IMG/VR virus record: IMGVR_UViG_3300032083_000594
Coordinates: 1-52,846 of that record
Strand: one strand, 5' to 3'
Source: a virus
Length of the DNA: 52,846 bases
In this document: piece after piece, positions 22,370 through 51,704 of the stretch
Layout of the letters: each line of letters starts with the position of its first letter
How positions within the stretch are numbered: the first letter of the stretch is position 1
Program-made: the position numbers and the translations under genes
The notes under the pieces: generated by a model
What the model was told of the DNA's origin: nothing
Database searches by the model: none
The model's input: the letters and a program-made list of their open reading frames with translations, nothing else

Positions 22370-23161
22370 CTACGCCCCACCAACATCTTCTATATTAGGT
22401 GAAAAAGGATCTATTACCTCTATTTTTTTCTGTTCTGTTGTGGCTGTTAAATCTGGAAATTTAATTTCTCCTATTGAATTAAACTCATCAAAATATACTT
22501 CACCATCTTTAACAACTATGTATTTATAGTTATCTTCATATGGGTCATAAACAACTTTACCATCTAAATTTTTACGAATTTGTTTTTGATTGTTAGGATC
22601 TCTAATATCAAACGTTAAAACACCACCATATCTAGTTCCAGTAACCGCACTTCTTAACGTGTCTGCATTTTGTGTAGAAAATAAAGCTGCTCTTTCAGCG
22701 ACTTGTGGTGGTAAGTCGTCTTCAATGTATTGTTCTAGCATTACATTGTACAATGCATCATTTGTTTTATTTCCTGCTATTCTTTCATCAGAAGCTATTT
22801 TTGTTTTTAATCTGTCCATAGCAGATTCATCGCCAGCTATTCTTTCACCTCTTAAAAAATCTCTTTCACCTTGTTGTTCTCTAGCCCTTGCTTGACTTAC
22901 TTGTAATTGATTAAATGGATCTCTTGCAGCTGTTGCAGCTGTTTGAAATATATTACCTTGTGGTGGCGTTGCTAAAAGATTTAAACCAAAGCTAGTTAAA
23001 AAACCTGGTAAACCTTCTGTTTGAAACGTTGGCATTGATCCTTGTTGATAACCTGTTCTACCACCATTAGCCATTTTTTGTGGTTGATCTAGTCCTGATG
23101 TAATACCAGTACCAGCTGATCCACCTATTCTAAACATTGGTCTTTTTAAAGTTCTATTCAT
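22370..23161 (-). CDS. Virion-region protein with GGRTGY motif
   Basis: 263 residues. The N-terminus, KRPMFRIGGSAGTGITSGL then NGGRTGYQQGSMPTFQ (GGRTGY at 33-38), carries the glycine-arginine motif shared by seven proteins here. The remainder is helical and charged, with a beta-rich end. TAATG junction with the Gln-rich gene upstream. Likely part of the ejection or internal virion set; not assigned. Confidence 0.55.
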   Translation of the reverse strand: MNRTLKRPMFRIGGSAGTGITSGLDQPQKMANGGRTGYQQGSMPTFQTEGLPGFLTSFGLNLLATPPQGNIFQTAATAARDPFNQLQVSQARAREQQGERDFLRGERIAGDESAMDRLKTKIASDERIAGNKTNDALYNVMLEQYIEDDLPPQVAERAALFSTQNADTLRSAVTGTRYGGVLTFDIRDPNNQKQIRKNLDGKVVYDPYEDNYKYIVVKDGEVYFDEFNSIGEIKFPDLTATTEQKKIEVIDPFSPNIEDVGGA

Positions 23162-24312
23162 TATTTTCTTGGCACCCCTAGTAAAGAAAAATCCCTAGCT
23201 CCTTGTCCTAAAGCTCCATATACACCAGCAAGTGTTGTACCAACACCTAATGCAGTTTGTAATGGTGTAGGGTTAGGTATGTTTGTTGTTTGTGTTTGAC
23301 CAGGATATCCACCCATGATTCCTGTTACTTGACCAGCAAATCTATCTAACTGTTCTTGTGGTAAGAATGTTGCTTGTCTTGCTGCCTCTCTTGTTGCATC
23401 AAGTTGTGCTTGTTGTTGCGCCTGGTTCAGTGCGCCCAACTGACCTAAACGTGAAATATCTGTACCTGTTGCTTGTTGTTGTACTTGTCCAAGTTGTGCT
23501 TGTTGTCCAGCTAATCCAGATTGAAATGCACCTAAACCTTGTGTTGCTCCTGCAAACCCTGCTCTTTGTCCAGCAAGTCCTGATTGTGCTTGACTTATAC
23601 CAAATCTATTTGCAATATCTTGTTGTCTAGCTTGTTGCGCTTGACCAAAACCTTGTTGCAAGAGACCGGCTTGTAATAACGCTCGTTCTCTCGCAGCCCC
23701 TGTGCCAAACTCTGCGAGTTGCACTCCCGCTCGACCACTGCCGAGCGCACCCAAAGCTGCCTGCTGATCTCTGATAGACTGTTCTTGTATAGCCTTGTTC
23801 CGATCAAATTCTGAAAGTGTTGCATCAATTACTTGTGATTGATAAGGGGACATAAAATCTTGTACACCTTGTTGAAAAGATGTTGCTCCAGTTCCAATTC
23901 CGCCTAATGTTGTTCCAGCACCAGTTAGTTCTGTTCCTGCAGTTCCTAATTGTCCTAATGCTTGAGTTCCTAGACCAGCAGCTAATGTTGCTTGTGTTTG
24001 TGCTTGTTGTAAAAACGGTTGAAAAGATCCTACACCTTGTTGAGCTAGTGTTTGTGCTTGTGTTTGTAATGCATCTTGACCTGCTACTTGTGGTGCAAGT
24101 CCTGATAAACTTTGTTGTCTTGTTGTAAATTGTTGAGCAGCACTTTGTCTTGCTGCAAAATCACCTGCTGATTCACCAGGTTGTTGTGATATACCAGCAA
24201 GTCCTGTTGATACAACAGGTACACCTGATTGTGCTACTACTTGTTTTGCTAAATCTTGTCCTAGATCTTGAACAAATTGTGCAGGTAAAACTTGTGATTG
24301 TTGAATAGCCAT
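23161..24312 (-). CDS. Gln/Ala/Gly-rich DNA-ejection-like protein
   Basis: 383 residues with very high Gln, Ala, Gly and Leu content, organised as long helices with irregular repeats (GLAGQRAGFAGATQGLGAFQ and similar) and only a few acidic residues. This composition is typical of P22-like injection proteins that form a conduit across the envelope. The gene is flanked by TAATG junctions and by two GGR-motif proteins. Its reverse strand carries long open frames, which are composition shadows. Confidence 0.62.
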   Translation of the reverse strand: MAIQQSQVLPAQFVQDLGQDLAKQVVAQSGVPVVSTGLAGISQQPGESAGDFAARQSAAQQFTTRQQSLSGLAPQVAGQDALQTQAQTLAQQGVGSFQPFLQQAQTQATLAAGLGTQALGQLGTAGTELTGAGTTLGGIGTGATSFQQGVQDFMSPYQSQVIDATLSEFDRNKAIQEQSIRDQQAALGALGSGRAGVQLAEFGTGAARERALLQAGLLQQGFGQAQQARQQDIANRFGISQAQSGLAGQRAGFAGATQGLGAFQSGLAGQQAQLGQVQQQATGTDISRLGQLGALNQAQQQAQLDATREAARQATFLPQEQLDRFAGQVTGIMGGYPGQTQTTNIPNPTPLQTALGVGTTLAGVYGALGQGARDFSLLGVPRK

Positions 24313-25712
24313 TATAATACTTCCTCTAGTCTTTGTGATGTTTGAAACATTTTACGTGCGCCTTCTAATCCTTGCGATTCCTCTGATACTTCACCTCCGG
24401 ATTCGAGGTTCTTCATCATGTTATACATAACTTCTGCACCTTTGTCTACATCTCCTTCACCTGCATTTCTAACAGCATCAGCTGTAAATACAAACTCATT
24501 CTTTGATAATCTTGCAGGTACGTCATCTGCTTTTTCCATACGTCCTATTGGAACGAATCCACCTTCAGCTCTTAAATCCATTTCTTTACCATCCATATCT
24601 AATAGTGGCATTGTTTTTTTTGCAACCGGTTCGTTCATAGATCCACCTTCAGCTTTAAATCTTCTTGCTAAATATTCATCAGGATTAGCTCTAATAGTTT
24701 CTATAGGTATTCCTGTTTCATCTGAAATTTGTTGTGCCTCTGCCTCTTGTTCAGGTGTTAAAGCACCTGCTATTGTTGATGCAAGAGTAATACCACCCGT
24801 TACAGTTGGCATTAAAGATCCACCACCTTTTGTTAAACCTAATGCAGGAAGTATACCTTCCTTAAAAGGAACAAATGCTTCACCCACTTTTGATCCTGCT
24901 TGACCAAGTAATGTTCCTCTTAAACCACTAAGTCCACCAAATTGTGTAGCTCCTAAATATCCTAATCCACCTAATAATGCAGTCCTACCTAATGGTGACT
25001 TTGCAATCTTCTTGACTGTTCTTCCAACTTTCTTAACAAGTTTACCTAAAAAATATTGTTGTCTTCCTGTTTCAAGGTCCATGATCCCACCTTCGTAAGG
25101 CATGCCACCTCCTGCTAGTCCTGCTCTACCACCTTCTGCTGCATACCTAAGTCTTAAACCTTCTAAACTTTCTAAATCTTCAGTATCTTGTTCTGGTTCT
25201 TGTGCCATGATGCTTGGTGCTTGAGCTACCATTGGTGATAAAATTATTTCTGGCCCTTCTGGATTACCGCCCACGTTATCATCTTCATCGTTATCATCCA
25301 TTAAAGTAACCGTACGTGTTTTTTTTGGTCCAAAAATACCTCTTGCTACTACTGTACCTAAAGTTGTTGGAATATCCAAAACCTTTGCTATTCCAAGACC
25401 GACTGTGTTTACAATTGGATTAAATTTATCAAGGAAGTTAAAAGAGCTAGATTTATAAGCATCAGGATTTTTTTCAAAATTTTTTTCAAAATCTTTTTGT
25501 CTGTCTGTTTGAATTCTACTTCTAGTTAAACCAGATGATGTCACAAAATCTCTTCCAGAGTCCCGTTGTGTTGCACCACCACCTGGAGGTCCACCATAAG
25601 CACCTGTACCTTTAGCTTCATCTCCACGATCTTGTGGACCACCAGATCTAAGTCCTATTCGTCCACCGTTTGCTAATAATTGTTTTGCGATTTGAGTTCT
25701 AGTTATGGCCAT
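24312..25712 (-). CDS. Virion-region protein with two GGR motifs and a conserved C-terminal block
   Basis: 466 residues. GGRIGL at 16-21 and GGRAGL at 194-199, further Gly-Gly motifs (KAEGGSMNEP, RAEGGFVPIGR), hydrophobic Gly/Leu-rich middle (LGRTALLGGLGYLGATQFGG) and a C-terminal block DVPARLSKNEFVFTADAVRN that looks conserved. The membrane-like middle plus glycine motifs suggest an internal or ejection component. Function unknown. Confidence 0.55.
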   Translation of the reverse strand: MAITRTQIAKQLLANGGRIGLRSGGPQDRGDEAKGTGAYGGPPGGGATQRDSGRDFVTSSGLTRSRIQTDRQKDFEKNFEKNPDAYKSSSFNFLDKFNPIVNTVGLGIAKVLDIPTTLGTVVARGIFGPKKTRTVTLMDDNDEDDNVGGNPEGPEIILSPMVAQAPSIMAQEPEQDTEDLESLEGLRLRYAAEGGRAGLAGGGMPYEGGIMDLETGRQQYFLGKLVKKVGRTVKKIAKSPLGRTALLGGLGYLGATQFGGLSGLRGTLLGQAGSKVGEAFVPFKEGILPALGLTKGGGSLMPTVTGGITLASTIAGALTPEQEAEAQQISDETGIPIETIRANPDEYLARRFKAEGGSMNEPVAKKTMPLLDMDGKEMDLRAEGGFVPIGRMEKADDVPARLSKNEFVFTADAVRNAGEGDVDKGAEVMYNMMKNLESGGEVSEESQGLEGARKMFQTSQRLEEVL

Positions 25713-25721
25713 CTTACTATT

Positions 25722-25901
25722 CTATTTTGTTTCTCCAAATAAATCAAGGCTTGGCATCACTAAAGTAACATCTTTTCTGATATCATCTGGTGAGATACCT
25801 TTAGCTTTCCATTCATTATCATCTTTATATTGTTCGCCTGTCTTTTTGTTTGTTATTTTTTCTATTATTTTATCAGGTGTTATTGTTGGTAAATCAGTCA
25901 T
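25722..25901 (-). CDS. 59-aa hypothetical protein
   Basis: MTDLPTITPDKIIEKITNKK then a polar stretch ending VMPSLDLFGETK. The start overlaps the upstream stop as TAATG; the stop is 9 bp before the next start codon. Small soluble protein in the virion operon; no family recognised. Confidence 0.6.
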   Translation of the reverse strand: MTDLPTITPDKIIEKITNKKTGEQYKDDNEWKAKGISPDDIRKDVTLVMPSLDLFGETK

Positions 25902-26242
25902 TATGTTGTTACCTCTCGTGGCTGTATTTCTAATATTGAAGCTATAACGTGCAGCTCATTCGCTTCAGCAGCTTGTACTTTTAACACTTCACTTTCTTCC
26001 ATAATTAAAGGCTGTGTTAAAAGTTCTGTTGTTGCTTTAGACCCTATTGCTTTATCTTTAAATAAATTAAAGATAGTGCCACTAGCATTTACTAGGGTTA
26101 TTGTTATTGTAGTTCCTGATCCAGCATCCTCAGATACTATTAATGATCTTATAACAGATGACTTAAAACTAGGCACTGTATACAATGTTGTTAAATCTGT
26201 TGTAGTTAAATCTACTTTTTTATTTATAAAACTATTTGCCAT
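25901..26242 (-). CDS. Small beta-rich virion-region protein
   Basis: 113 residues, Thr/Ser/Val-rich, alternating beta pattern (LTTTDLTTLYTVPSFKSSVI, then TTITITLVNASGTIFNLF). It has the look of a virion decoration or tail accessory domain. TAATG at both ends. Confidence 0.55.
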   Translation of the reverse strand: MANSFINKKVDLTTTDLTTLYTVPSFKSSVIRSLIVSEDAGSGTTITITLVNASGTIFNLFKDKAIGSKATTELLTQPLIMEESEVLKVQAAEANELHVIASILEIQPREVTT

Positions 26243-26406
26243 TAATTTAAAAAGAAGTTTTGTGCTTCTACTTCATCCTTTAATTCTTCTTGAAACGTCG
26301 TGTTTAATTTTTCTACAATTGCATCTAAATCTCTAACTTGAGATTCTGCAACAGTAATATCATATTCTCTACTAGCTCTTGTTAAAACTTGTACTATTTT
26401 TGCCAT
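26242..26406 (-). CDS. 54-aa helical protein
   Basis: MAKIVQVLTRASREYDITVA followed by a charged helix ending QNFFLN. Linked on both sides by TAATG overlaps between the tail protein gene and the 113-aa gene. Function unknown; consistent frame and start context support it. Confidence 0.6.
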   Translation of the reverse strand: MAKIVQVLTRASREYDITVAESQVRDLDAIVEKLNTTFQEELKDEVEAQNFFLN

Positions 26407-28583: not shown

Positions 28584-28615
28584 ATATGTCCTTATTTATT
28601 AAAAATCTTAATAAA

Positions 28616-28648
28616 GCAAGTGAGTATGTGTGGTGTAATACTCACTCG
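28616..28648 (-). terminator. Terminator-like hairpin
   Basis: Perfect 9-bp stem AGTGAGTAT (28619-28627) / ATACTCACT (28638-28646), extended by outer GC pairs around one mismatch; leftward it is followed by TTTATTAAG and then a second AT-rich inverted repeat. It lies after the oxygenase genes and before the 725-aa tail gene, the largest gap in this region. The T run is imperfect. Confidence 0.5.
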
Positions 28649-28672
28649 CCAATGTTTTATATCAATCTTTAC

Positions 28673-29296
28673 TTATAAAATCAACTCAGCTAAGTCTCGA
28701 TTTGGCCCTATTTTACCTTTGAGGAAAGTATTAAATGCAAGACTTATTCTAGTATTAGAACCCCTTTTATTATCCACTTGATGAGTTGTAGAAGATGGAA
28801 ACATTATTATCTCACCAGTTTCTACCGGAAAAAACCAAGAAGAAGAATTATATGGGTTATATTTATCTTTATTAATTTCAGGGGATATTTGTTTATATGA
28901 TATTGGATTAAAAAATTTTATTAAATCAGTTTCTTTGTTTGAATCAATATACAAAACACCTGATGCAAATGAATTAGGATGTTCATGTTTATGATGAAAT
29001 TCATTTTCTTCCGTATAATTTAACCAAGACTGAGTTACATAAATTTTTATATCTTTCTTTGGACAAACAACATTATTTAAATAACTTTGACAAACTTCAT
29101 CCACAAATTGTTTAATATTTTTAAGTTCAGGTCTATTTAAAATATAATTATCTTTAGTATGAATATTACCTGAGTTGTTTACACAGTAATTTTTTTGATC
29201 ATTTACAAATTCTAATTCTTTTTCTGTAAATTCTCTACCTATATCTGTCATGTAAACAGGAATTGGAAATAGTCCATGAATTTTATAATCTTTCAT
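28673..29296 (-). CDS. 2OG-Fe(II) oxygenase (TIGR02466-like)
   Basis: 207 residues from the ATG at 29296 (TAATG with the upstream oxygenase). The start GLFPIPVYMTDIG is typical of this family; iron ligands lie in HHKHEHPNSF (101-110), with distal H172 (STTHQVDN) and R183 (NTRISLAFN). It hydroxylates an unknown substrate using 2-oxoglutarate and oxygen. The upstream TTG/GTG-type extension of the frame is rejected in favour of the coupled ATG. It forms a two-gene oxygenase unit. Confidence 0.78.
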   Translation of the reverse strand: MKDYKIHGLFPIPVYMTDIGREFTEKELEFVNDQKNYCVNNSGNIHTKDNYILNRPELKNIKQFVDEVCQSYLNNVVCPKKDIKIYVTQSWLNYTEENEFHHKHEHPNSFASGVLYIDSNKETDLIKFFNPISYKQISPEINKDKYNPYNSSSWFFPVETGEIIMFPSSTTHQVDNKRGSNTRISLAFNTFLKGKIGPNRDLAELIL

Positions 29297-29883
29297 TAAT
29301 AACACCAAGATACAAATGAATATCTTGTTCCTTTTGTAACTGGTTTAACTAAATGTGGATATAAAAATACTGATGGAAATATTATAACATCTCCAGGTTT
29401 AAATTTTATTTGATAGTCATCAAACATAATAAATTCTCCACCTTCATAATCATCATTTAAAACACCAACAATACTTAAAATTGGTATACCTCTTTTTTCA
29501 CCTGTAAATAAACTATGAATGTGATCACAATGTTTAGACATTATTTGATTTTTATTATATCTATTAAATCTTAATTTGTAAAAACCTTTCCAACCATCAA
29601 ATTGTGGTCCACTTATTTTGTCAATAACAATATATTTTTCTAATGCTTTCCAAGTTAATCTCATTAACTCTTCTATATAAGTTAAATCATCTCCATAGCA
29701 AACATCAAGTTCTCTTTCACCATTTTTATCAAATTCATTATAATTCTGTGTGCTTGTATAAAAATGTCTTTGCCATGTTTTATTTTTTTTTAATTCTTTT
29801 AAAGAATCATCTAAAATATTTTGAGGAATCCAATTATCTAAATGAAGTATGTAATTTTTTAAATCTAAAGATTGTTTTTTCAC
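29296..29883 (-). CDS. 2OG-Fe(II) oxygenase (prolyl-4-hydroxylase-like)
   Basis: 195 residues. Iron site H118-C-D120 (SKHCDHIHS), distal H177 (LYPHLVKPV) and R187 (TRYSFVSW), with the jelly-roll stretch GVLNDDYEGGEFIMFDDYQI and FKPGDVIIFPS. All catalytic residues are present, so activity is expected. Located just downstream of tail fibre genes, it might modify virion proteins or glycans, or act on host targets. Confidence 0.82.
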   Translation of the reverse strand: MKKQSLDLKNYILHLDNWIPQNILDDSLKELKKNKTWQRHFYTSTQNYNEFDKNGERELDVCYGDDLTYIEELMRLTWKALEKYIVIDKISGPQFDGWKGFYKLRFNRYNKNQIMSKHCDHIHSLFTGEKRGIPILSIVGVLNDDYEGGEFIMFDDYQIKFKPGDVIIFPSVFLYPHLVKPVTKGTRYSFVSWCY

Positions 29884-29907
29884 ACCACTAAAAATATATT
29901 TGTTTTA

Positions 29908-30285
29908 TTATTCTCGTAAATCCCAAGTTTGATCTGTTTCATTCCAATTATATACTTGACCATCTGTAGGATAAGAAACAGGTGCTTCCCATTGACAAGT
30001 ATCTTCATTTATTGTCCAACTGTCATAAGGTTTTATTGGAATAAAAGCATCTCTTGTTTGATCGTATCTTCCACCAACAGTAGCATAATTTTTTCTAAAA
30101 GGTGTACCACCCAATTTATGTTCACCAGCAAAAGTATTGTAAGACGTCTGTATCCAAGTGTCAGCTGTATTGTAAATACTATTTAAAAAATCCGCACCAG
30201 CTTGTTCAGTTGTAGCAATATCATTGTGTACCACCTCGACTCTTTCAACTATGCTTCCAGTTCCTATTTTTGCAAAATGTGCCAT
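29908..30285 (-). CDS. Tail-associated protein (marine phage type)
   Basis: 125 residues: MAHFAKIGTGSIVERVEVVH, EQAGADFLNS, RKNYATVGGRYDQTRDAFIP, KPYDSWTINEDTCQWEAPVS, ending YNWNETDQTWD. This arrangement is familiar from small structural proteins of marine cyanophages and related viruses, placed beside tail fibres. Likely a fibre or baseplate accessory. It is 9 bp downstream of the fibre gene. Confidence 0.6.
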   Translation of the reverse strand: MAHFAKIGTGSIVERVEVVHNDIATTEQAGADFLNSIYNTADTWIQTSYNTFAGEHKLGGTPFRKNYATVGGRYDQTRDAFIPIKPYDSWTINEDTCQWEAPVSYPTDGQVYNWNETDQTWDLRE

Positions 30286-30294
30286 AATAATCTC

Positions 30295-32541: not shown

Positions 32542-32552
32542 AAATTTTTCTC

Positions 32553-33668: not shown

Positions 33669-33681
33669 AAGGAAATCCTCC

Positions 33682-39956: not shown

Positions 39957-39957
39957 G

Positions 39958-40923: not shown

Positions 40924-40941
40924 AGTTACTCCTTCCTATGA

Positions 40942-41783: not shown

Positions 41784-41883
41784 TGATAGCTCCTTTCAAC
41801 ATTTTAGCTTGTTTAGTATGAGCTTTAACTGCTTTGCCCAATCCTTTAATCACTTTTTTAATTGCATTTTTTTTCTTTAACAT
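41746..41883 (-). CDS. 45-aa Lys-rich protein
   Basis: MLKKKNAIKKVIKGLGKAVK, then a Lys/His/Gln helix and a Gly/Lys tail. It is read in a different frame from the genes on both sides; the start overlaps the stop of the 97-aa gene and the end overlaps the 94-aa gene. Highly basic; DNA binding is plausible. Confidence 0.52.
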   Translation of the reverse strand: MLKKKNAIKKVIKGLGKAVKAHTKQAKMLKGAINGGSKKGNGKKA

Positions 41884-42170: not shown

Positions 42171-42445
42171 TATGCGGTCTTCTTTTTCTTAGCAAATGTT
42201 GCAGCTCTACTTGGAGTAGGACCTGTGTTTGCTTTCGCTTGTTTTCTTCTTACGGCACCCGCACGCTGCCCTTTGGACATCGCTCTTGCTTTTGCAATAG
42301 GCACGCATTTTGGATAATTTTTTCTTTTTTCGCCACCACTTCTTCCACACTTCGGGTATGAGCCATCTGATTTTTTGTTTGCAATATCGACCCAATTGTC
42401 CTTGACCCATTGTCTTAAACCACCTTTTGAAAAATGCGTTCGCAT
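42170..42445 (-). CDS. DUF5872-like basic protein, 91 aa
   Basis: GLRQWVKDNWVDIANKK, then YPKCGRSGGEKRKNYPKCVP, AKARAMSKGQRAGAVRRKQA. Paired YPKC motifs around a Gly/Arg stretch and a long basic tail resemble a small T4-type-phage family (DUF5872, from memory). Cysteine pairs could bind zinc. TAATG at both ends. Confidence 0.62.
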   Translation of the reverse strand: MRTHFSKGGLRQWVKDNWVDIANKKSDGSYPKCGRSGGEKRKNYPKCVPIAKARAMSKGQRAGAVRRKQAKANTGPTPSRAATFAKKKKTA

Positions 42446-42834
42446 TACGAATTCTTTCCGTAAGCTCTTCCTTTGCCTTTAGTAGCTAACTTACAACCTT
42501 TAGATCCAGATTTAAATCCTGCTCTTCCACCTGATTTGTAATGTCTTGCTATAGATCTTTTAGTACGAGTTAATTGTTTATCATCTGTTGCAGCATCTAC
42601 AATATTTTTTAAACCTTTTTTAGTTATTTTTTTACCATCTCCAATATTTTCAGAACTTAAAGCAGCATCTAATTGGTCAAAAGCAATTTCACCTTTAGGT
42701 CCTTTTTTATCAAAAACAGGTTTAATAATTTTTAAGGCTTCTTTTTCCGTAATTTTATCTACTCCATAACGTTCACTATCTTTTTTATTTTTTTCTTTTC
42801 TAGCTGTTTTTGTTGATGGGTATTCAAATGCCAT
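42445..42834 (-). CDS. Basic protein with GGRAGF motif, 129 aa
   Basis: An N-terminal two-thirds of charged helices includes a possible EF-like helix pair (PKGEIAFDQLDAALSSENIG). SGGRAGFKSGSKGCKLATKG follows (GGRAGF at 102-107), with the end KGRAYGKNS. One of seven proteins sharing the GGR motif. Basic, TAATG junctions both sides. Function unknown. Confidence 0.58.
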   Translation of the reverse strand: MAFEYPSTKTARKEKNKKDSERYGVDKITEKEALKIIKPVFDKKGPKGEIAFDQLDAALSSENIGDGKKITKKGLKNIVDAATDDKQLTRTKRSIARHYKSGGRAGFKSGSKGCKLATKGKGRAYGKNS

Positions 42835-43418
42835 TATACTTGTCCTCCTTTTAAATATTTCATTCTAGTCATATCTATCATTCCACCACCCATTTTTTTA
42901 GTTTGATTTCTAAGTTTTTCATTTTTAAATTTTAAATCTGGTCTTGGACCTTTATTCATTTTTAAATTTTCATTTTTAAATTTTTTACTAATATTTTTTG
43001 CTGTTCCAACAGCTTGTTTAACTCCTGTTTTAACAAATTCTTTTATTTTATCAGGAACACGTTTATCTTTATAACGTCCTTGAAATTTAGTTCCAAGTTT
43101 ATAATCTTTAGATTCAGAACTAATATTTTTTGCTGTTCCAACAGCTTGTTTAACTCCTGTTTTAACAAATTCTTTTATTTTATCAGGAACACTTTTATCT
43201 TTATAACGTCCTTGAAATTTAGTTCCAAGTCTATAATTTTCAGATCCAGAGCTGTATCCTATTCGTCCACCCATAGCTTTTTTATTACGATTTTTTTTAC
43301 CACCGGGTGTAATTTTACCTGAACATACTCCAGATGCATACATATTAGCATATGCTGATGGATACACTTTGAATTTTCGTTTCGCTGCTGCTTTTCCTTT
43401 TGGACACAATTTTGCCAT
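42834..43418 (-). CDS. Basic protein with internal 44-residue duplication and GGRIGY motif
   Basis: 194 residues. The N-terminus has CPKGKAAAKRKFKVYPSAYA then NMYASGVCSGKI, a Cys-bounded basic segment. GGRIGY lies at 50-55. Residues 62-105 and 106-149 are near-identical repeats (YRLGTKFQGRYKDK / YKLGTKFQGRYKDK onward). The C-terminal Lys/Asn-rich end finishes MGGGMIDMTRMKYLKGGQV. Probably a DNA-associated virion protein; role unknown. Confidence 0.6.
   Translation of the reverse strand: MAKLCPKGKAAAKRKFKVYPSAYANMYASGVCSGKITPGGKKNRNKKAMGGRIGYSSGSENYRLGTKFQGRYKDKSVPDKIKEFVKTGVKQAVGTAKNISSESKDYKLGTKFQGRYKDKRVPDKIKEFVKTGVKQAVGTAKNISKKFKNENLKMNKGPRPDLKFKNEKLRNQTKKMGGGMIDMTRMKYLKGGQV
42972..43235 (-). 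repeat. 132-bp tandem duplication inside the 194-aa gene
   Basis: Two copies of a 132-bp unit (43104-43235 and 42972-43103) differ by only a few bases over most of their length, keeping the reading frame (44 codons). The near identity at third codon positions indicates a recent duplication or ongoing homogenisation. Confidence 0.85.
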
Positions 43419-43861
43419 TATCTATTCCTTAATTTTTTAAAATCAGCACCATCAATCTTATTTGGATTACCCGCTAATTTTGCTATCTTCATTTGTTTTG
43501 GTGATAAGTTTTTCTTTTTAGGACCAAAAGTTTCTTTTATTTTTTCAACACTTGTTTTTGGTTTTGGTGTACCAAATCTTCTACCAATTCTGCCCCCATC
43601 AGCTTTTTTATCATATATGTCGGCTATCTTTTTATTAATTTTAGGTTGATTAGATTTTTTTCTTAATTCAATTTTTTGTTCATCAGATACCTTATAACCA
43701 CTATGTATCTCACTTCTTTTTGTAGTGATGTCATCTTGAACTTTTCTTTTCTTTGCTAAATTTTTTCCCGGTTTGATAGATGTAATAGTAGTTGGAACTT
43801 TACTTTTGTTTCCTTTTAATATTTTTCCTACAGTTTTAAATACATTAAAATATCCAGACAT
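43418..43861 (-). CDS. Basic protein with GGRIGR motif, 147 aa
   Basis: MSGYFNVFKTVGKILKGNKS start, Lys-rich body, KKADGGRIGRRFGTPKPKTS (GGRIGR at 89-94), and the end LSPKQMKIAKLAGNPNKIDG with KKLRNR. Low complexity but clearly in the operon (TAATG both sides). Predicted nucleic-acid or capsid-inner-surface binder. Confidence 0.55.
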   Translation of the reverse strand: MSGYFNVFKTVGKILKGNKSKVPTTITSIKPGKNLAKKRKVQDDITTKRSEIHSGYKVSDEQKIELRKKSNQPKINKKIADIYDKKADGGRIGRRFGTPKPKTSVEKIKETFGPKKKNLSPKQMKIAKLAGNPNKIDGADFKKLRNR

Positions 43862-44250
43862 TATTTTTTTCCTCCGCCGTTTCTAAAAATTTGTGTACCC
43901 TTTATACCATAAATACTCGCCACGACAAGGATCCAAAGATTGGTGAACCATGACGGGAGCTGTGAGAACATCTCGAAGAACAATTTTACCTTGTCCATCG
44001 CTGTTGGATCATCCGATATCACTGCCCAAGCGAGCACCAAAACGGGCAAACTGAGAATTATCAAAACTGCCTCGTCTTTCCAGTCTGATTGTCTAGCTTC
44101 TAGCAATTTTCCCTGGTAAGCTTCGTCACCTCGGGCCATCTTTTCAGCATGCATTAATTGTGCATCTGACATTGCCATTTTCGTTCTCTGCTTGTTAGCA
44201 TAAATCTTACTTCCAGCAGAAACGGCTAGTTTAATTGCCGATAACCACAT
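43861..44250 (-). CDS. Holin-like membrane protein (GTA-type 3TM family resemblance)
   Basis: 129 residues: an N-terminal helix (LSAIKLAVSAGSKIYANKQR), a charged linker (DEAYQGKLLEARQSDWKDEA), then two clear spans (VLIILSLPVLVLAWAVISDD and WFTNLWILVVASIYGIKGT). The W-x-DE entry into a span and the 'LPSWF-N-- ... ASIYGIK' end resemble the three-TM holin family of gene transfer agents. Its location in the head module, far from the endolysin, is unusual. A membrane role is certain; holin function is likely only. Confidence 0.62.
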   Translation of the reverse strand: MWLSAIKLAVSAGSKIYANKQRTKMAMSDAQLMHAEKMARGDEAYQGKLLEARQSDWKDEAVLIILSLPVLVLAWAVISDDPTAMDKVKLFFEMFSQLPSWFTNLWILVVASIYGIKGTQIFRNGGGKK

Positions 44251-44252
44251 GA

Positions 44253-44435
44253 TTAGTAAGCCTTAGATTTTCTTTTTTTGTCTGCTCTTACAGCACCTTG
44301 GCCTTGAACTTCTTCTTCAGGTTTACCAGTGCCAATTAAGTTAAAAGCACCATCTGCAGTTGTTTTAGATCTTGGATCGACCTCAACTTCTTGTTCTGGA
44401 ACGTTAACTATTTGTATTTTATCAAGTTTTTGCAT
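44253..44435 (-). CDS. 60-aa small protein
   Basis: MQKLDKIQIVNVPEQEVEVD, then a Gly/Glu/Gln-rich linker and a basic end KKRKSKAY. AGGAG precedes the ATG. It sits directly after the portal gene (16 bp gap). Possibly a small head-completion or connector peptide; no family recognised. Confidence 0.55.
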   Translation of the reverse strand: MQKLDKIQIVNVPEQEVEVDPRSKTTADGAFNLIGTGKPEEEVQGQGAVRADKKRKSKAY

Positions 44436-44451
44436 TTTTTTACTCCTTTTA

Positions 44452-46911
44452 TTAATTATCCTCTACCATAACTTGTGCTTGTTGTACACCAGACTTTGCA
44501 AGACTGACTCCAGCTCGTAATTTTGCTAAATCTTCGTTCTGATCCATCTTATCTTCTGCAATTTCTTGTGCTTGCATCAATTTTGCTCTGTTTAAATCTT
44601 GAGTTGCCTCGTCATTTTGTTTTTTACGCTCATTTTCCATCGCTCGAAGGTCAACTTCACGTGATTTTAACTTTAATAGAGGGTCGTTATCGAATTGAGA
44701 TGTAATTTGTTTCTCTTCTTTCATGTATTCTTCTGTCATCTCAGCAATTAAAACAGCTTTTCTTGATTCTATTTGATTTGTTAGTGCTTGAACCTGTGCT
44801 TGTATTTGTGGATTAGTTGCTGCTTGTTGTTGCATCATCATCATTTGTTGCATTTGTTCTCTAAACTCTAATTGTACCTGTTCTTGTGCCATTAAACTAA
44901 TATGTTCTAGAATATTTTTCTGTATCGCTGCCATAACTGCAGGATTATTTCTAACAATATTAGTTGACATAAAATTTAAGTGAGCTGTAATGTGTGCTCT
45001 GTGATCTTGACCAGGAAATGCCTGAAAAGGTTTGCCACCTAAAGCATTAATGTGTTCTAAACTTGGGTCTATCGGTGCTGTTGGTGCCGGTGGTGGTAAA
45101 ACTGCATCAACATCTTTTACACCTATTGCATTATACATGTTTCTATAGATTTGATACATGTTATGTAATTGTGGATTTGATGTTGCAATCTGCAACTGTG
45201 TTTGTGCTAAAGTAATTCTTTGCGACATTGAAAAAATATTAGGGTCCGCTACAGGAATTACATCAACTCTATTATCAAAGTCAGCTTGTTTTATATTTCT
45301 TGCTCCACCTACAACATCATATGGATATTCTGGTGGTAAATATTGTGAAACAATTTTACCAAGTAATCTAAATTCATTTTTCATTGCCGCATAACATCTT
45401 TTGTGAATTGCAGACATAACTCTTGAACCACGTTCTAGTAATGCAATCGTTGTTCCAACAGCAGCACCTTGATTACCATCACCCACTTGCATATCAGCAA
45501 TACTCGCGAATCTCTGACCAGCTTGTACTACAATACCAAGTAAGTTTAATAAAGTCTGTGATGGTTCTTTGTAAGGTAGTGGGAAGAATGCATCTCTTAA
45601 ATTACCACCTGGTGCATCAACATCTTTAAATTCACCTGGTTGTATTGGAGCTGCTTCATCTCTAACTCTAACACCTCTTTGTTTAAATCCTGCTGGCAGG
45701 TTTGATAACGTACCTGCATCTAATAATTGACGGAGAGCCGCCGTTGCCGTACGACTCAATCCGCCAATCATGTGAATGAGTCCAAAGCCATAAAATCCTA
45801 GTCCTGGCAGAAACTTGAAGTGGACAAAATATTGGATTTTATTTTTCTTTAGATCATCGGGCGCATAGTTCCTTCTAATAGAAAGAACTTTTCTATTGCC
45901 TTCTTCTACAGTTACTATGTAGGGCAATTTTATTCCAGTTGGCTCACCTTGAGCATCAACTTCTTCAAAACCTTCTAAGTCTAAATTTACATGACACTCT
46001 AACAAAGTATATACAGGTTCGTTCTTACCTGTTTTTTTTGTACCATCTAACTCACGTTCTTTTTTGTCGAGTTCATTATTTGTATCTGTTCCTGGTGGAC
46101 CCAATTCTACATCTCTGTAGAAACCACTGACTTGTTGTTTTCTTAATTCATTTTCAGAAATTTTTACTTTGTGAATAACTGCCTCCGCATCGTCTAATGA
46201 GGTAGCCGTATACGGGACAATTAATTCATCTGCAGGCACAAACTTTGATACTGCTCGTCCCATTGGAACATCGTAGTATATTTTTTTAAAAGTTGATCCT
46301 GCTAATGGTAAATGAAATAACATAGAATCGAATTCTGATTCATACTCTTTCATTTGATCCATAATTAAGTAATTCATAAAATCTTTAACACGATTTGCCT
46401 GCTGTTCTGTTGCAGTATTTTTAATTCCTACAACTTGTGTTCTAACTGGTCCATCTGATGGTAATAATTCTTTGTAAGCTTGTGCTTGAAATTGTGTAAC
46501 AGCTTCTGCAAGAACTGGGTGAGTTGCACCACTAGCTCCTTGAAATGGTTCTGTTCTGTTTTCGTATTTAAAACCTAAAAGATCTAAACCTGTAATGTAT
46601 GATTGCTCCCATTCTTTTCTTGAAGTTTTGTAATCCATGTAGTTTTGAGTCATCTCGTTGCCGATTGGCTCTAAAACGTCATCAGGTAAAAGTTCTGCTA
46701 AGTTGTCAAAGTGTGATTCTGTTCCTGGTACATTGATTGCACCTGGTTCATAATCTAAAGTTACACCACCATCTTCTTCTGGTATAACCTCAATTGGTTT
46801 TCTTAAATCTTGTTCTGTTTGTTCCTGAACAGCTATTTCTTGTAATTCCTCCTCTGAAGGAATTTCTTCTTTGTTTCTAGTGTTCGGGAGTCCTTTATCT
46901 ATATCTGCCAT
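44452..46911 (-). CDS. Portal protein (P22-like)
   Basis: 819 residues, close to the length of large podovirus portals. Characteristic segments: GFKYENRTEPFQGASGATHP (about 113-132) and AVTQFQAQAYKELLPSDGPV near the N-terminus; FKFLPGLGFYGFGLIHMIGG and the RLLDAG/QGAAVGTTIALLERGSRVM region in the middle; a Gln/Met-rich helix (EQMQQMMMMQQQAATN) and a long charged coiled coil at the C-terminus, probably the barrel that extends into the capsid. It forms the dodecameric gate for packaging and ejection. GGAG before the ATG. Confidence 0.88.
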   Translation of the reverse strand: MADIDKGLPNTRNKEEIPSEEELQEIAVQEQTEQDLRKPIEVIPEEDGGVTLDYEPGAINVPGTESHFDNLAELLPDDVLEPIGNEMTQNYMDYKTSRKEWEQSYITGLDLLGFKYENRTEPFQGASGATHPVLAEAVTQFQAQAYKELLPSDGPVRTQVVGIKNTATEQQANRVKDFMNYLIMDQMKEYESEFDSMLFHLPLAGSTFKKIYYDVPMGRAVSKFVPADELIVPYTATSLDDAEAVIHKVKISENELRKQQVSGFYRDVELGPPGTDTNNELDKKERELDGTKKTGKNEPVYTLLECHVNLDLEGFEEVDAQGEPTGIKLPYIVTVEEGNRKVLSIRRNYAPDDLKKNKIQYFVHFKFLPGLGFYGFGLIHMIGGLSRTATAALRQLLDAGTLSNLPAGFKQRGVRVRDEAAPIQPGEFKDVDAPGGNLRDAFFPLPYKEPSQTLLNLLGIVVQAGQRFASIADMQVGDGNQGAAVGTTIALLERGSRVMSAIHKRCYAAMKNEFRLLGKIVSQYLPPEYPYDVVGGARNIKQADFDNRVDVIPVADPNIFSMSQRITLAQTQLQIATSNPQLHNMYQIYRNMYNAIGVKDVDAVLPPPAPTAPIDPSLEHINALGGKPFQAFPGQDHRAHITAHLNFMSTNIVRNNPAVMAAIQKNILEHISLMAQEQVQLEFREQMQQMMMMQQQAATNPQIQAQVQALTNQIESRKAVLIAEMTEEYMKEEKQITSQFDNDPLLKLKSREVDLRAMENERKKQNDEATQDLNRAKLMQAQEIAEDKMDQNEDLAKLRAGVSLAKSGVQQAQVMVEDN

Positions 46912-46920
46912 TTAATACTC

Positions 46921-49572
46921 CTAGTAGTTTTTAACACGGTTTTTAAGGGATAGCAACCCTTGTGAATTTGGCCCTCTTACTGGTGCTGGACCTGATGATA
47001 CACCAGCTTCTTTTGCTATTCCCCCACCTGCTGCCGCAAAACCTCTTAAACCGCTACCTATATCAGAAATGTCAATATCAAATGGATTAATAACTTGTCC
47101 TTGTGTATTTACATTTGTTCGACCAACTATTTCATTTTCCATATCACCTATAACGTTTTGTGGTTTTTCCATAGGTGGTTTATTTATCGGCTCACCCACA
47201 GTTCCTGACGCTCCGTAAACTGATTCTGGATTAAATCGTTGTGCTAACTCTGATAGAGAAGCATTTCTTAATGAATCTCTATAAGCTAATATATCTTTTG
47301 CTGACACTTTTGAACCTTGTGCTCTAATTCTTTGTGCTAAATTTATTGCATCTGCAGTCGACATAGTTATAAAATCTTTTTCATCTCCAAATGCTGGGAG
47401 TATTTTTTCATTTAATTGTTTTTGTGTTTGTTCAGACATTCCTAAAGTTTCGATATCACTATCAGGTTCTACATCTCTAAATTTAGATTTTAGTTTGGTA
47501 AAAAACGATCCCGAACTTCTAGCATCATCAACTTCGTCCTGCATTCTATCTGCATAAATTCTTTCAGCCTCTGGCATTTTAAACTTATTGTTTAAATCAT
47601 CAGTTGCCTGTTTTAATCGAGCATCCACATTTTTTACATTTTGACTTAAATCACTAATATAATCAAAATCACCTCCCCCTGATAAATTTTCAAGGTTTGC
47701 TTTTTGATCTTCTAAACTTTGTATTTTTGTTAGTTGATTTTTGTAATCAAGAGATTTACCAATGATACCTGCAACCTCTGGTCCAAAGAATCTACCTGCT
47801 TCTAACATCTCGGCTTTTTTAGTTTGATTACCTGGTAACAAATAATCAGACGCTCTTAAAAAAGCTTCGTTAAGAGTATCACCCATACCCATTCTAATTA
47901 CAGAATCAGCAGCAACATATAATGCTTCAGGTATGACACCAAACTTTATAACATTTCTACCCAAACTTGCTGCTCTATTTGCAAATGCTGCAAAGTTTTT
48001 AGCTTGTGCGGGGGTTACATTTTTCATTCCAGAGTTAATATTTTTTATACCTCCTTGATAACAAACATCTAGACTAGGGAGGCTTCCTTCTTGAAAACCT
48101 GCTCGTCCTCCTTGTGAGTTAAATCCCCTACTACATCTTGGATCTTTACTTAGTGTTGCTATGAGTTTTTTGTCAACTCCTGATATTTCTAATTTTTGTC
48201 CTCTAGGAAAAATTTCTTTTAAAAGTTTTTTTCCTTCGTCTGTTTTTTTTAATTTTTCTAAATTTTTTTTTGCAAGATTTTGTTCTCTTAAATTTTGTGT
48301 TAATTCTTTTAATAAACCCTCTTGTGTTTTTTTAGCTATGTTAGTTGCACCAAAATTAAATTTTTTAGTTGATCCTTTTCCTATATTAACATTAAGAGTT
48401 TTAGCAAGGTTTTCTATTTGTTTTATTTTTTTAATATCTTTTACATCGGCTAGTAAAGCTTTATCATAAGCTTTACTTAAACTTTCTTTAAAACCTCTAT
48501 TATATCCTCTACTAATAGGTGTTACATACAAAAGTTTTTCTGGAGATACATTCGATCCTTTTAAAAAAGCTTTTGATAAAGGGTGATCTAAATCTAATTT
48601 TAAATCACCAGGTAGAGTATTAAGAAATTTATTATACTCTGATAATCCTTGTAAAGCTGCTACATATTTTTTAGGGTCTTTTCCTCTTCCAAAAGCATCC
48701 ATAATTAATGTTCCAATATTTTCTGACTGTACTTTTCTTAAACCTTTTATATTTGAAAAGTTATCTAAGAAATTATCTGTAGTATTAAAGTCATCAGGTA
48801 ACCATGATTTTAAGGGTTCTTTAGATAAATTTTCTTTACTTATTGCAACATTTTGTGCGTACACATTATTTAATAATTTACTTGATTGTTTTACAATTTC
48901 TTTTTCGGTTTTATTAAATTTTTTAGCCATAGATTTTACGGTGGCATTAGGGTTTTTTAATATTTCATCAAATAATTTTTTTTGTGTTATTATTTTTTTT
49001 AATGCTAGTTCTGATTGTTTTTTTGATTTACCCGTTTTTGTAAACTCAAGAGCTTCTTTATAAGTATCAATCATATACCTACGATTAACTCCTAATTTTT
49101 TAGCTAATGCATTTTGTGCCTTAACATCTTTACCAAGAATAATATTATTAAATAATGTAGTATCTTGAGTGTTTAAAATTCCACCAGCGTCTACAGCTCC
49201 TTTTGCCATTCTAGCTGTTCTTGTTTTAACTTTTAATTTTTTATAATCTTGTTCTATAAAAGCTTTACCTATTTTATCAAACTTTGCTTTTATTTTTGCA
49301 ACATTTCCTGCTTGTTGTGCAGCTTTAATTGCTTTATCACTTCTATACCCCTGCCTCGTGCCACCAAAACCTGGTTGCACTAACATACCACCGCCTGCTT
49401 TCTGTTGTCGTTCACGTCTTAGAAATGCGTTGACTGCTTCTCGCTGTTCAACTTCTGGTTTAATTGGTGGGATAGGTGCTTTGCTTGCAGGAAAGACATT
49501 AGGAAGTTCTGGTTGTGTTTTCTTAGCTCGTGTTAAATATTTATATATCTCTCTTAATTTATATGGGTTCAT
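46921..49572 (-). CDS. Large Lys-rich virion-region protein with GGRAGF motif, 883 aa
   Basis: N-terminal region with a Gly motif (GGGMLVQPGFGGTRQGYRS, 60-78), then some 380 residues of Lys-rich helices containing repeated helix-turn-helix-like units (NATVKSMAKKFNKTEKEIVK). A Cys-flanked GGRAGF block (C480...488-493...C504) follows, then helices and a glycine-rich end (GGGIAKEAGVSS, then LLSLKNRVKNY). No enzyme motif recognised. Its size and place between portal and terminase suggest a virion-packaged protein that is injected or lines the head. TAATG with the next gene. Confidence 0.55.
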   Translation of the reverse strand: MNPYKLREIYKYLTRAKKTQPELPNVFPASKAPIPPIKPEVEQREAVNAFLRRERQQKAGGGMLVQPGFGGTRQGYRSDKAIKAAQQAGNVAKIKAKFDKIGKAFIEQDYKKLKVKTRTARMAKGAVDAGGILNTQDTTLFNNIILGKDVKAQNALAKKLGVNRRYMIDTYKEALEFTKTGKSKKQSELALKKIITQKKLFDEILKNPNATVKSMAKKFNKTEKEIVKQSSKLLNNVYAQNVAISKENLSKEPLKSWLPDDFNTTDNFLDNFSNIKGLRKVQSENIGTLIMDAFGRGKDPKKYVAALQGLSEYNKFLNTLPGDLKLDLDHPLSKAFLKGSNVSPEKLLYVTPISRGYNRGFKESLSKAYDKALLADVKDIKKIKQIENLAKTLNVNIGKGSTKKFNFGATNIAKKTQEGLLKELTQNLREQNLAKKNLEKLKKTDEGKKLLKEIFPRGQKLEISGVDKKLIATLSKDPRCSRGFNSQGGRAGFQEGSLPSLDVCYQGGIKNINSGMKNVTPAQAKNFAAFANRAASLGRNVIKFGVIPEALYVAADSVIRMGMGDTLNEAFLRASDYLLPGNQTKKAEMLEAGRFFGPEVAGIIGKSLDYKNQLTKIQSLEDQKANLENLSGGGDFDYISDLSQNVKNVDARLKQATDDLNNKFKMPEAERIYADRMQDEVDDARSSGSFFTKLKSKFRDVEPDSDIETLGMSEQTQKQLNEKILPAFGDEKDFITMSTADAINLAQRIRAQGSKVSAKDILAYRDSLRNASLSELAQRFNPESVYGASGTVGEPINKPPMEKPQNVIGDMENEIVGRTNVNTQGQVINPFDIDISDIGSGLRGFAAAGGGIAKEAGVSSGPAPVRGPNSQGLLSLKNRVKNY

Positions 49573-51704
49573 TATTCTCCTAACATTCTAGCGATACCAC
49601 CTGATGCAAAGGCATCATCTGGCACATCATAATCAGACTCATTTACCTCGCCCTGTCTTCTGACAACTGCATCTGATTGAGCCTCAGGATCTGTCGTTAG
49701 TCTTCTAGCCTTATCTTTTCTTTTTTTGTTTTGAATAATCTCTCTAATCGTAGGTCCTTTGCCTGTCGCATATTCTTTTAGTTTAGATACATCAGAATCT
49801 AGATCTCTGATACTTGAACCACCGATCTCGTCGACCTCTATCTCATAATCATCTGGTCCATATCTTCTGCCAACAGGACCTGCCTCTGCTGTAGAAAACT
49901 CTGCTGCAGGGTTTGGTGCTCCTTCATCAGGTAATGGTTTTTTATATTCCATTTGTACTGTGTCTTCAAAAACATTATCAGGACTATCATACTCAACTCT
50001 TACAGCACCATCGTCCACGTCCTCTGTAACTCGGACCACGGAACCATCATTAAGTGTTTTCTGATGAATAGATTGTCTTTCCCCTGTTGCAAATTTTTTA
50101 GTAACGTCATCACCTTCAATAATAACTTTATTAACTAATGCATCAAACCATTCTGGTTTACCAGCAACGTTATCTGTTTTAATAATTGGAACGCTCTTAA
50201 TACCTTTTGCAGTTTTAATTGGTTTTAAAAATTTACCAACAATAGGTATTGATGCAAGACCACCTAATATTTTTAAGAAACTTCTTCTGCTCATGCCAGA
50301 CCCATTTTTAAATTGTTTTCTAAAATTAAAACCAATACCAGTATCATCTCGTCCAAAACCTTTGTTGATACCAAAACTTAACTCACCACCGCCAATATTT
50401 TTTTGTCCACCAATCTTTGCTCTATCTAAGTCAAACATTAACATCATGTCTTTTGATAAAGGAACTTTAGCAGGATCAACGTTTATCATTCTTTTAACTA
50501 TTTCTTTTAAAGCTTCTTCAGGATCATTTGTTTCAAAGGTAGGTCCCATCGATTCTTGTTTTTTATCAAAATCATATTTAATACTTGGTGCTCCTGTGCC
50601 ATTTGCATAACCAATACGTCCGCCGTCTGCTCTCTTTTCACCAAACATTCTTTCCGTATAGGCTTCAATTGTTTTATCTTTAAGTTCTGGATTTTTTTTA
50701 TAGAAAGGATCTGCATTTAATTCTTGTATAAATTCTTTTAAGTTTTGTTCTTTCTGCTCTTCGTTCATAGCTTCTAATTTTTTTCTTAGTTGATTATTTA
50801 TTAAGGCTCCAGTTGTTGCAGGAATACCAACTTCTGCAAGAGGTAGGTCCATAAACTTACCTGTCTCATTTGCTTTTAATGTTTTATCTTTAATATTTTT
50901 TAAATAATCTTTACCTGCTTGATATGGACTTTTTTTATTAAAAAAATTTAATAAAGTTTGAATACCTTTTTTACCTGTACCTAATTTATATCCTGCACGA
51001 CCGCCTGTTGCTAAGTCTTCTGGTGGATCAAATTTCTGTTTAGTTAAACCTTGATAGGCTTCATCGTAAAGTTCCATTTGATCTATTTCATCTAAATCAT
51101 AAAACTCTTTACCAAATCTTTTTTCTGCTAAATCATCTGCAACAAGTTGTGCATCGTATTTTCTATCTCCTGCAAATCCTGGTGAAGCATTGTCGATTGC
51201 TTCTTCAATCATTTTTCTATTTTTTATTCTTTGAACAGCTGCTTTGTTATCTTTTTCCATACGAGCTAATACTTCTGCTTCTCTTTGTTTAAGAGTCTTA
51301 GGTCCTTGTTCAGTTGTCTTCACTAAATCTGAATATGGATTATCTGTTTTCATTAATCCTTCTTTTAAAGTCTGTTCGTTTATTTCTTTACCACCCATAA
51401 TACCTTTTGATGGATTTATTTTTTTACCCGTCATATCAAAGACTTCACCTTTTCGATCAAACTTGCTACCCCCTAGCATATCACCAAAACGTTGTTGAAA
51501 CGCTTGGTCCTCAGCTTGTTTAACATAAGACAATATTTGATTTAATTCTTTTTCACTTGTGATCGCATTTGGATCAATGCCTAAATTTTTTAATCTATTC
51601 TCTAAAGCATTCGCAGAAAATTCTACTGCTTTGTTATTAGCAATCGCTCCCTGTTTTTTAAAAAGGGCTTTTGCTATAAAATTTCTGATAACTGTTACTG
51701 CCAT
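49572..51704 (-). CDS. Large protein with two GGR motifs and an internal twin-arginine-like signal, 710 aa
   Basis: Charged helical N-terminal half; GGRAGY at 234-239 and GGRIGY at 361-366. Then M471-SRRSFLK (472-478) followed by ILGGLASIPIVGKFLKP, an almost perfect twin-arginine signal in the middle of the chain. The last 210 residues form a separate beta/acidic domain (VIIEGDDVTKKFATGERQSI, then GSVVRVTEDVDDGAVRVEYD) ending SGGIARMLGE. No known family. Either it is cut or restarted at M471, giving a Tat substrate, or the motif has another role. It lies between the terminase-linked small gene and the 883-aa gene. Confidence 0.55.
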   Translation of the reverse strand: MAVTVIRNFIAKALFKKQGAIANNKAVEFSANALENRLKNLGIDPNAITSEKELNQILSYVKQAEDQAFQQRFGDMLGGSKFDRKGEVFDMTGKKINPSKGIMGGKEINEQTLKEGLMKTDNPYSDLVKTTEQGPKTLKQREAEVLARMEKDNKAAVQRIKNRKMIEEAIDNASPGFAGDRKYDAQLVADDLAEKRFGKEFYDLDEIDQMELYDEAYQGLTKQKFDPPEDLATGGRAGYKLGTGKKGIQTLLNFFNKKSPYQAGKDYLKNIKDKTLKANETGKFMDLPLAEVGIPATTGALINNQLRKKLEAMNEEQKEQNLKEFIQELNADPFYKKNPELKDKTIEAYTERMFGEKRADGGRIGYANGTGAPSIKYDFDKKQESMGPTFETNDPEEALKEIVKRMINVDPAKVPLSKDMMLMFDLDRAKIGGQKNIGGGELSFGINKGFGRDDTGIGFNFRKQFKNGSGMSRRSFLKILGGLASIPIVGKFLKPIKTAKGIKSVPIIKTDNVAGKPEWFDALVNKVIIEGDDVTKKFATGERQSIHQKTLNDGSVVRVTEDVDDGAVRVEYDSPDNVFEDTVQMEYKKPLPDEGAPNPAAEFSTAEAGPVGRRYGPDDYEIEVDEIGGSSIRDLDSDVSKLKEYATGKGPTIREIIQNKKRKDKARRLTTDPEAQSDAVVRRQGEVNESDYDVPDDAFASGGIARMLGE

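Follow-up and report, generated by a model that had tools for sequence, protein, structure and literature searches.

Large, modular and variable phage proteins, many of them encoded in a portal-terminase context and thought to be packaged and injected, have been described as polyvalent proteins (Iyer et al. 2017, PMC5512222). Here we describe a glycine- and arginine-containing peptide motif of about 13 residues, with the core GGRxG followed mostly by Tyr, Phe or Leu, that recurs in different proteins of the 52,846-base virus record IMGVR_UViG_3300032083_000594 (the window, by which the whole of this stretch is meant) and of its relatives. The proteins that carry the motif (carriers) resemble polyvalent proteins in being large, modular and located beside the portal and terminase genes. 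They differ in that one shared joint peptide couples their modules; the words "linker" and "glycine" are absent from the main text of PMC5512222. They also differ in their domains, because the known effector, peptidase and anti-defence domains were not found when 64 carriers were compared with Pfam and PHROGs.

Another near system is the T4 capsid-targeting sequence, which is likewise one short peptide common to otherwise different head-internal proteins. That sequence is N-terminal and is removed by the prohead protease, whereas the motif described here is mostly internal and occurs in one to five copies per protein. No prohead protease gene was named in Pfam scans of the window proteins (among 25 of 28 families in one scan). 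Short conserved glycine-rich stretches also border variable segments in gp38 of T-even phages, but gp38 is a single receptor-binding protein of the tail tip and has a polyglycine-II sandwich (PMC12892980), whereas here a motif with a strict arginine lies in linkers of low predicted confidence in many proteins of cargo and ejection slots. The crAss001 protein gp45 docks to the portal from the capsid interior by part of its chain, as is proposed below for the carriers; it does so by a compact domain, and its description, as far as it was available, gives no short motif common to many cargo proteins (PMC10172136). These four systems are the nearest, and none fits all the defining features tested. 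In the accessible portions of the open-licence PubMed Central literature, including PMC12753301, PMC9599517 and PMC10504331, no description of the motif was found, and six motif strings were matched in two papers, neither of which has a title about phages.

By sequence, the window is an HTVC027P-like pelagiphage. Its portal protein (44,452-46,911, assigned by homology) shares 68% identity, over 94% of the length, with its counterpart in Pelagibacter phage HTVC027P and 52% with the one in HTVC023P, and the genes of the window run parallel to those of HTVC027P. Judging from these relatives, the host is probably SAR11, an abundant marine bacterium. Ubiquity and high abundance have been reported for phages of SAR11 (PMC10504331). 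The majority of the late genes of HTVC027P are annotated as hypothetical.

A six-frame scan of the window found nine copies of GGRxG, all on the minus strand, where the carriers, tails, Tat-like element, portal gene and gp85-like gene located below also lie, in seven open reading frames (ORFs), and none in the other five frames. These are the nine copies that a first-pass annotation had listed, and each was confirmed in frame at the residues then given. The 710-amino acid protein (49,572-51,704) contains GGRAGY at residues 234-239 (50,988-51,005) and GGRIGY at 361-366 (50,607-50,624), and the 883-amino acid protein, which adjoins the portal gene (46,921-49,572), contains GGRAGF at 488-493 (48,094-48,111). 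Three small carriers after the portal gene (together 42,445-43,861; basic by eye) hold GGRIGR from residue 89 of the 147-amino acid protein (43,580-43,597), GGRIGY from residue 50 of the 194-amino acid protein (43,254-43,271) and GGRAGF from residue 102 of the 129-amino acid protein (42,514-42,531). The 466-amino acid, gp82-like protein (24,312-25,712) has GGRIGL from residue 16 (25,650-25,667) and GGRAGL from residue 194 (25,116-25,133), and the 263-amino acid protein, gp84-like by gene comparison (22,370-23,161), has GGRTGY from residue 33 (23,048-23,065). Copies in the window thus begin anywhere from residue 16 to residue 488. The last place is Tyr, Phe or Leu in eight of the nine; the exception is the GGRIG-R of the 147-amino acid protein. 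A variant, GGTRQGY, is present at residues 70-76 of the 883-amino acid protein (49,345-49,365).

The copies are far more frequent than composition would predict, as a comparison with residue shuffles proposed along with the annotation made clear. In the 70 ORFs of the window, nine GGRxG compare with a mean of 0.43 and a maximum of 4 in 2000 shuffles within ORFs. In a wider set of 2030 ORFs, which includes 120 loci picked by the motif pattern with an AGA codon, GGR.G[FYLMW] occurs 378 times versus 3.28 (maximum 11) in 100 shuffles, and the GGTRQGY class occurs 21 times versus 3.4. At 89 loci picked by homology to the portal or the 883-amino acid protein, every one of the 151 GGRxG is on the same strand as the portal gene.

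Alignment of 357 distinct instances (pattern-chosen loci included) defines a conserved stretch from -3 to +9, [FMYK]-A-[DNEK]-G-G-R-[IVA]-G-[FYL]-[KA]-x-G-[GTS], in which the first Gly of the core is position 0. Positions -3 to +6, +8 and +9 carry at least 1 bit of information, +7 is free, and positions outside the stretch carry less than 0.45 bit. Which substitutions are tolerated was counted by relaxing one position at a time in 1026 ORFs from loci that had been chosen without the pattern. The Arg position held Arg 155 times, Lys once and Ile 15 times, and the +4 position held Gly 155 times, Asn 9 times and Ala 5 times; Asn, like Gly, fits left-handed turns. Position +5 was Phe (61), Leu (58) or Tyr (35), and +8 was Gly in 148. 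Likewise, GGK.G[FYLMW] occurs 4 times in the 2030 ORFs compared with 6.4 in shuffles. These rules, read from sequence, fit a recognised peptide and not a loose Gly-rich basic linker. In a set selected by gp85 homology (described below), the Arg place held Arg 72 times, Lys was not among the eight residues listed, and +5 was Val in 34. The deviating residues in this set are taken as near-matches of other origin, that is, as other Gly-rich stretches; for instance, the stretch GGREGV, which is motif-like but lacks F/Y/L, recurs in gp83-type genes (position 2580 of locus L092, 39151 of L093 and 44578 of L094) and in the motif-free phage HTVC023P.

Where in the genome does the motif occur? Ten motif-bearing genomes or long contigs were compared: the window, HTVC027P, 023Pt_psg01 and seven IMG/VR records. 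Of the 399 ORFs on their virion arcs (boundaries drawn by hand), 27 hold strict copies, 39 in all, and the 343 other ORFs hold none, against 0.68 and 0.1 copies in shuffles; because 7 of the 10 genomes were reached via loci of the motif-pattern scan or another locus search, the presence of the motif was partly chosen, whereas its position was not. The suggestion that all carriers lie in the virion half is thus borne out, and the motif is not equally common outside virion genes. The copies fall into a few slots, namely the genes between terminase and portal (gp41 and gp42 of HTVC027P; the 710- and 883-amino acid proteins of the window), small genes that follow the portal gene, and the block that precedes gp85, where gp82 and at times the protein in the gp84 place are carriers. 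The portal protein, which serves as the landmark of the cargo slot, the capsid, scaffold-like and tail proteins, gp83 and gp85 have zero copies in the gene listing of the ten genomes. A similar picture comes from 55 of 80 gp85-selected loci, those with at least 3.3 kb of DNA before gp85, which contain 74 motifs on the coding strand before gp85 and none after it; the upstream DNA also holds none on its reverse strand. An upstream motif is found at 41 of the 55 loci, down to a gp85 identity of 35%.

The motif is nearly confined to the HTVC027P-like pelagiphage lineage. An AGA-biased codon pattern for GGRIG[FY]xxG found at least 120 stretches in viral contigs, and 131 of 131 matches listed there lie in open frames that are 60 codons or longer. 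In 257 Gb of genome contigs it found 43 stretches, of which 17 lie in frames shorter than 60 codons; about 11 of the 43 presumably belong to 5-formyltetrahydrofolate cyclo-ligase, as judged by eye. A gene set was drawn from the ten genomes and from three relatives without the motif (HTVC023P, CRP-901 and DSL-LC04, with genes called over 50 kb each). By BLAST, 119 of the 120 viral contigs listed match this set and 116 match a gene in it that is not a carrier; about six of the 120 are themselves pieces of records in the set. The whole records of the three relatives and of HTVC010P and HTVC008M gave no match to a degenerate DNA pattern that covers Phe and Tyr, and not Leu, at +5, and no GGR.[GN][FYLMW] was present in 34,000 bases of HTVC010P and 50,000 bases of HTVC008M that were examined. 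The sole viral contig listed that lacks a match to a lineage gene is L104, whose reverse strand has one GGRIGF in a 1014-amino acid frame (ORF 6578-9622); in a longer record this frame has 2132 amino acids and perhaps encodes a tape-measure protein. Contig L222 (CALHTV010000083.1, 5,582 bases), which is filed under an uncultured Dictyoglomus genome, has a gene for a gp85-like protein (30% identity over 1,415 columns) and, next to it, one for a protein with the motif; it is probably a misbinned phage contig.

The motif sits at joints between exchangeable modules. The evidence comes from where alignments between carriers begin and end (the counts are redundant). When the motif was masked, 1941 of 5699 internal BLASTP alignments started 5-20 residues after it, compared with 366 of 6013 for random masks. 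In unmasked searches, 682 of 6457 alignments started exactly at -2 and 171 of 2767 ended at +8; the masked run is the fairer of the two because a shared motif itself draws alignments to its edge. DNA alignments behave in the same way. At 80-90% identity, 141 of 674 start at the motif (33 at random sites) and 64 of 296 end there (10 at random sites). At 90% identity or more, 10 of 40 start at the motif versus 1, and 2 of 28 end there versus 1. At 65-80% identity, 327 of 3254 start at the motif versus 116 at random sites. Furthermore, cutting the carriers at the motif yields 590 segments in 167 families (114 of them singletons) and 324 junctions of 188 kinds, and one mostly C-terminal segment family has 30 different left partners.

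In structure predictions, made for two proteins, the motif is placed in linkers of low AlphaFold confidence. The model of the 710-amino acid protein was built from 31 sequences and has a mean predicted local distance difference test score (pLDDT) of 68. Both motif segments (residues 225-246 and 358-391, pLDDT below 50) are predicted to lie between helical parts, and residues 505-690 are mostly well predicted. The model of the 883-amino acid protein is weak (mean pLDDT 57), with values below 50 at 485-495, around its motif. A Foldseek search with the 710-amino acid model had no match in the PDB at an E-value of 0.001 and matched one protein of an uncultured virus in BFVD.

The carriers had been thought to share nothing else. 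This holds for single columns, as the only columns conserved at 90% or more among 64 diverse carriers are those of the motif. It does not hold for modules. When carriers with masked motifs were grouped by single linkage, 16 groups resulted, one of which holds 214 of 260 carriers, including the 466-, 710- and 883-amino acid proteins, connected via shared modules. Among the carriers tested, nothing rose above the curated cut-offs of Pfam, PHROGs or NCBIfam. For the 64 carriers, Pfam gave at most two weak matches at E 0.01, and in PHROGs eight were weakly tape-measure-like, two endolysin-like and one DNA-binding-like. The C-terminal part of the 466-amino acid protein is weakly like tape-measure PHROGs, and the 194-amino acid carrier matches a PHROG of unknown function. 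A tblastn search for homologs of the 710- and 883-amino acid proteins in named phages found none.

A second shared element is located at the C-terminus. The annotation had mentioned related Gly-Gly ends, and these exist as part of two conserved tails, A (GGIARMLGE or GGVAYMLGE) and B (GP....GL..L.KR), that end most cargo-slot proteins. In the window, tail A of the 710-amino acid protein (GGIARMLGE, 49,575-49,601) and tail B of the 883-amino acid protein (46,924-47,031) are each conserved in their families. Across 67 loci, 139 ORFs of at least 150 amino acids upstream of the portal comprised 40 with tail A, 39 with tail B, 28 terminases and 32 with neither, the classes being called by regular expressions; by eye, the 32 include 5 terminases, 14 with tail B and 2 with tail A.

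How did the motif spread? It had been argued from differing Arg codons that the repeat is kept at the protein level and is not copied DNA. Only the codon differences of nine copies were available to that view (AGA in four, CGA in three and CGT in two). Codon counts from the wider set, with the 120 pattern-chosen loci excluded, show that CGT accounts for 0.53 of Arg codons in the motif core versus 0.09 of the remaining Arg codons of those ORFs (p 1e-63, copies treated as independent). The motif Arg itself is CGT in 86 of 148. Of the motif Arg codons, 87 of 123 in large carriers and 4 of 28 in small ones are CGT, and in the gp85-selected set 23 of 72, versus 0.07. An effect of neighbouring bases or of residue conservation is not supported by the controls. 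Conserved Arg positions use CGT in 0.22 of cases in the portal and in 1 of 31 in the tail. In Gly-Arg pairs outside the motif, its share is 0.34 when the Gly codon is GGC and 0.17-0.19 when it is GGT or GGA. In addition, codon agreement at shared residues is 0.657 within a protein and 0.509 between contigs, where 0.451 is expected. The abnormal Arg codon means that DNA copying or recombination contributed, and the spread of the motif was, at least in part, a spread of DNA. There is constraint on the protein as well, because the residues Gly, Gly, Arg, Gly, F/Y/L and Gly are retained although silent sites differ. In other words, the half of the earlier claim that concerns the protein stands, and the half that denies copying goes against the CGT excess and the codon agreement. 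The module joints, the shared-module links, the confinement to a single lineage and the signs of DNA copying all go beyond that annotation.

What could the motif do? The residues stay fixed while silent sites vary, which calls for a reader at the protein level or a structural need for Arg. We tentatively propose, with a little less than even confidence, that the motif is a docking or joint peptide read by a phage-encoded virion partner. On this model, the motif would be exposed in a flexible linker and would take a defined turn once bound. A single virion partner would read it, and the candidates are the gp85-like 1311-amino acid protein of the ejection block (18,426-22,361, assigned by homology), which has no motif in the window, and the portal. 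Modules between the joints would be packaged, or threaded out, along with the DNA. The DNA of the joint would also be a place of recombination, so that an incoming module brings its own coupling, and the C-terminal tails (GGIARMLGE; GP-x(4)-GL-x(2)-L-K-x-R) may serve as the address of each cargo protein. The gp85-like protein is a candidate by co-occurrence: no other large protein is present in all five full motif-bearing genomes and absent from all three motif-free relatives, of which about 50 kb each was compared. A host factor alone was considered as the reader and rejected, as HTVC010P and HTVC008M infect the same host and lack an F/Y-form match; with no match in other phages of that host, the best fit is a reader that the phage lineage itself encodes.

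Several observations weigh against the docking model. The location of the carriers in the virion and their partner are points that we infer from sequence. Exchange of modules at linkers requires no receptor. The co-occurrence of gp85 may reflect shared descent, and five small ORFs (44,253-44,435, 26,242-26,406, 6064-6270, 6736-7119 and 10,741-10,959) have a gp85-like distribution, 5 of 5 versus 0 of 3. Fourteen of the 55 gp85 loci lack the motif, including 7 of 13 in the most distant class; one match lies in reading frame inside the gp85 gene region; and the gp82-related protein of DSL-LC04 has no motif. As for the joints, alignment ends before the masked motif are barely enriched (471 of 2120 versus 389 of 2619), in the 65-80% identity class 278 starts lying 70-105 bases after the motif nearly equal the 327 at it, and the 710-amino acid protein has a third joint without GGR. 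The motif is present in 33 of 40 tail-A proteins but in 9 of 39 strictly called tail-B proteins. Finally, the gp85-selected set has Leu (13), Tyr (13) and Phe (8) at the Arg place and Phe (19) at +4.

An extended form of the docking model is more speculative and, in our judgement, unlikely to hold as a whole. It envisages a combinatorial cargo system in which effector-like modules would be swapped via a universal 13-residue coupling that acts both as a crossing-over point and as a loading or threading handle for the gp85-like protein or portal, with the tails as address. If so, any module gaining the coupling would become deliverable. In any case, one peptide ties together about 260 carriers in the sampled loci and gives a common label, probable cargo or ejection proteins, to hypothetical genes. 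A loading handle, if real, would show how reshuffled modular phage proteins remain deliverable.

The main alternative, possible but rather unlikely, is that the motif is a processing site, at which a protease cuts cargo polyproteins and frees their modules. The C-terminal module of the 710-amino acid family would then gain an N-terminal signal, as it starts with [ST][RK]RxFLK, which resembles the twin-arginine translocation (Tat) signal peptide and is followed by a moderately hydrophobic stretch. In the 710-amino acid protein the element is SRRSFLK at residues 472-478 (50,271-50,291), at the start of the exchangeable C-terminal module. Among 43 sites of the form [RK]RxF[LI][KR], including a few duplicates of one sequence, 33 lie 8-15 residues after the motif, and 31 sequences show no variation at the second Arg or at the Phe. 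The Pfam family TAT_signal (PF10518) matches 8 of 9 family members, all below its cut-off (best 16.5 bits versus 22.7), and is absent in one. The module could also acquire an N-terminal signal by internal translation start at a Met before the Arg pair; this was rejected as a general route, because several homologs lack that Met, and its failure favours cleavage. Cutting by metallopeptidase domains has been proposed for polyvalent phage proteins (PMC5512222). Unlike a Tat signal peptide, the element is internal here (residue 472 of 710). Tat-like sites can also be found where there is no motif, the window being an example, and most belong to one module family, so they are not independent. Lys hardly replaces Arg, and the motif is 13 residues long, which also speaks against a processing site; usual protease sites are shorter. 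M15 is the sole peptidase named in the Pfam scans of the window proteins, within the scope given above, and the capsid protein matches only the capsid part of head-protease fusion PHROGs.

Is a reader needed at all? The motif might be a passive joint: a flexible linker, encoded by DNA at which crossing-over preferentially takes place, that is conserved by repeated copying and recombination with no receptor. This would account for the CGT excess at the motif Arg, the higher codon agreement within a protein and the DNA breakpoints at the motif. It does not account for the residue rules, with residues fixed while silent sites vary, or for the persistence of the motif where gp85 identity has dropped to 35%, and we consider it improbable as a full account. 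A nucleic-acid contact of the RGG-box type is very unlikely: the Gly-Arg-aromatic make-up and the basic small carriers agree with it, but an RGG box has clustered RGG tripeptides whereas the motif comes as single GGRxG[FYL]xxG units, Lys rarely replaces Arg, and no copy exists in the 343 ORFs outside the virion arc. Chance, or the composition of Gly-rich basic proteins, can be all but dismissed given the shuffles of the window ORFs, the strand counts at the portal and gp85 loci, and the few stretches with the codon pattern in genome contigs.

Some further features of the window were observed. Residues ~320-365 of the 883-amino acid family form a conserved LDH...N...GFK stretch that looks like an HNH nuclease by eye; this reading of the segment around LDHPLS was rejected, as Pfam gives it no support. 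The 194-amino acid carrier (42,834-43,418) contains a 44-residue tandem duplication, identical at 37 of 44 residues and 123 of 132 bases, which is probably a recent internal duplication. Among the replication-half genes, a 145-amino acid protein (4331-4768) scores above the Pfam cut-off for LAGLIDADG_1 and is probably a homing endonuclease. The Pfam scan of the window proteins also named two 2OG-Fe(II) oxygenase families, which by gene order probably correspond to two adjacent genes at 28,673-29,883.

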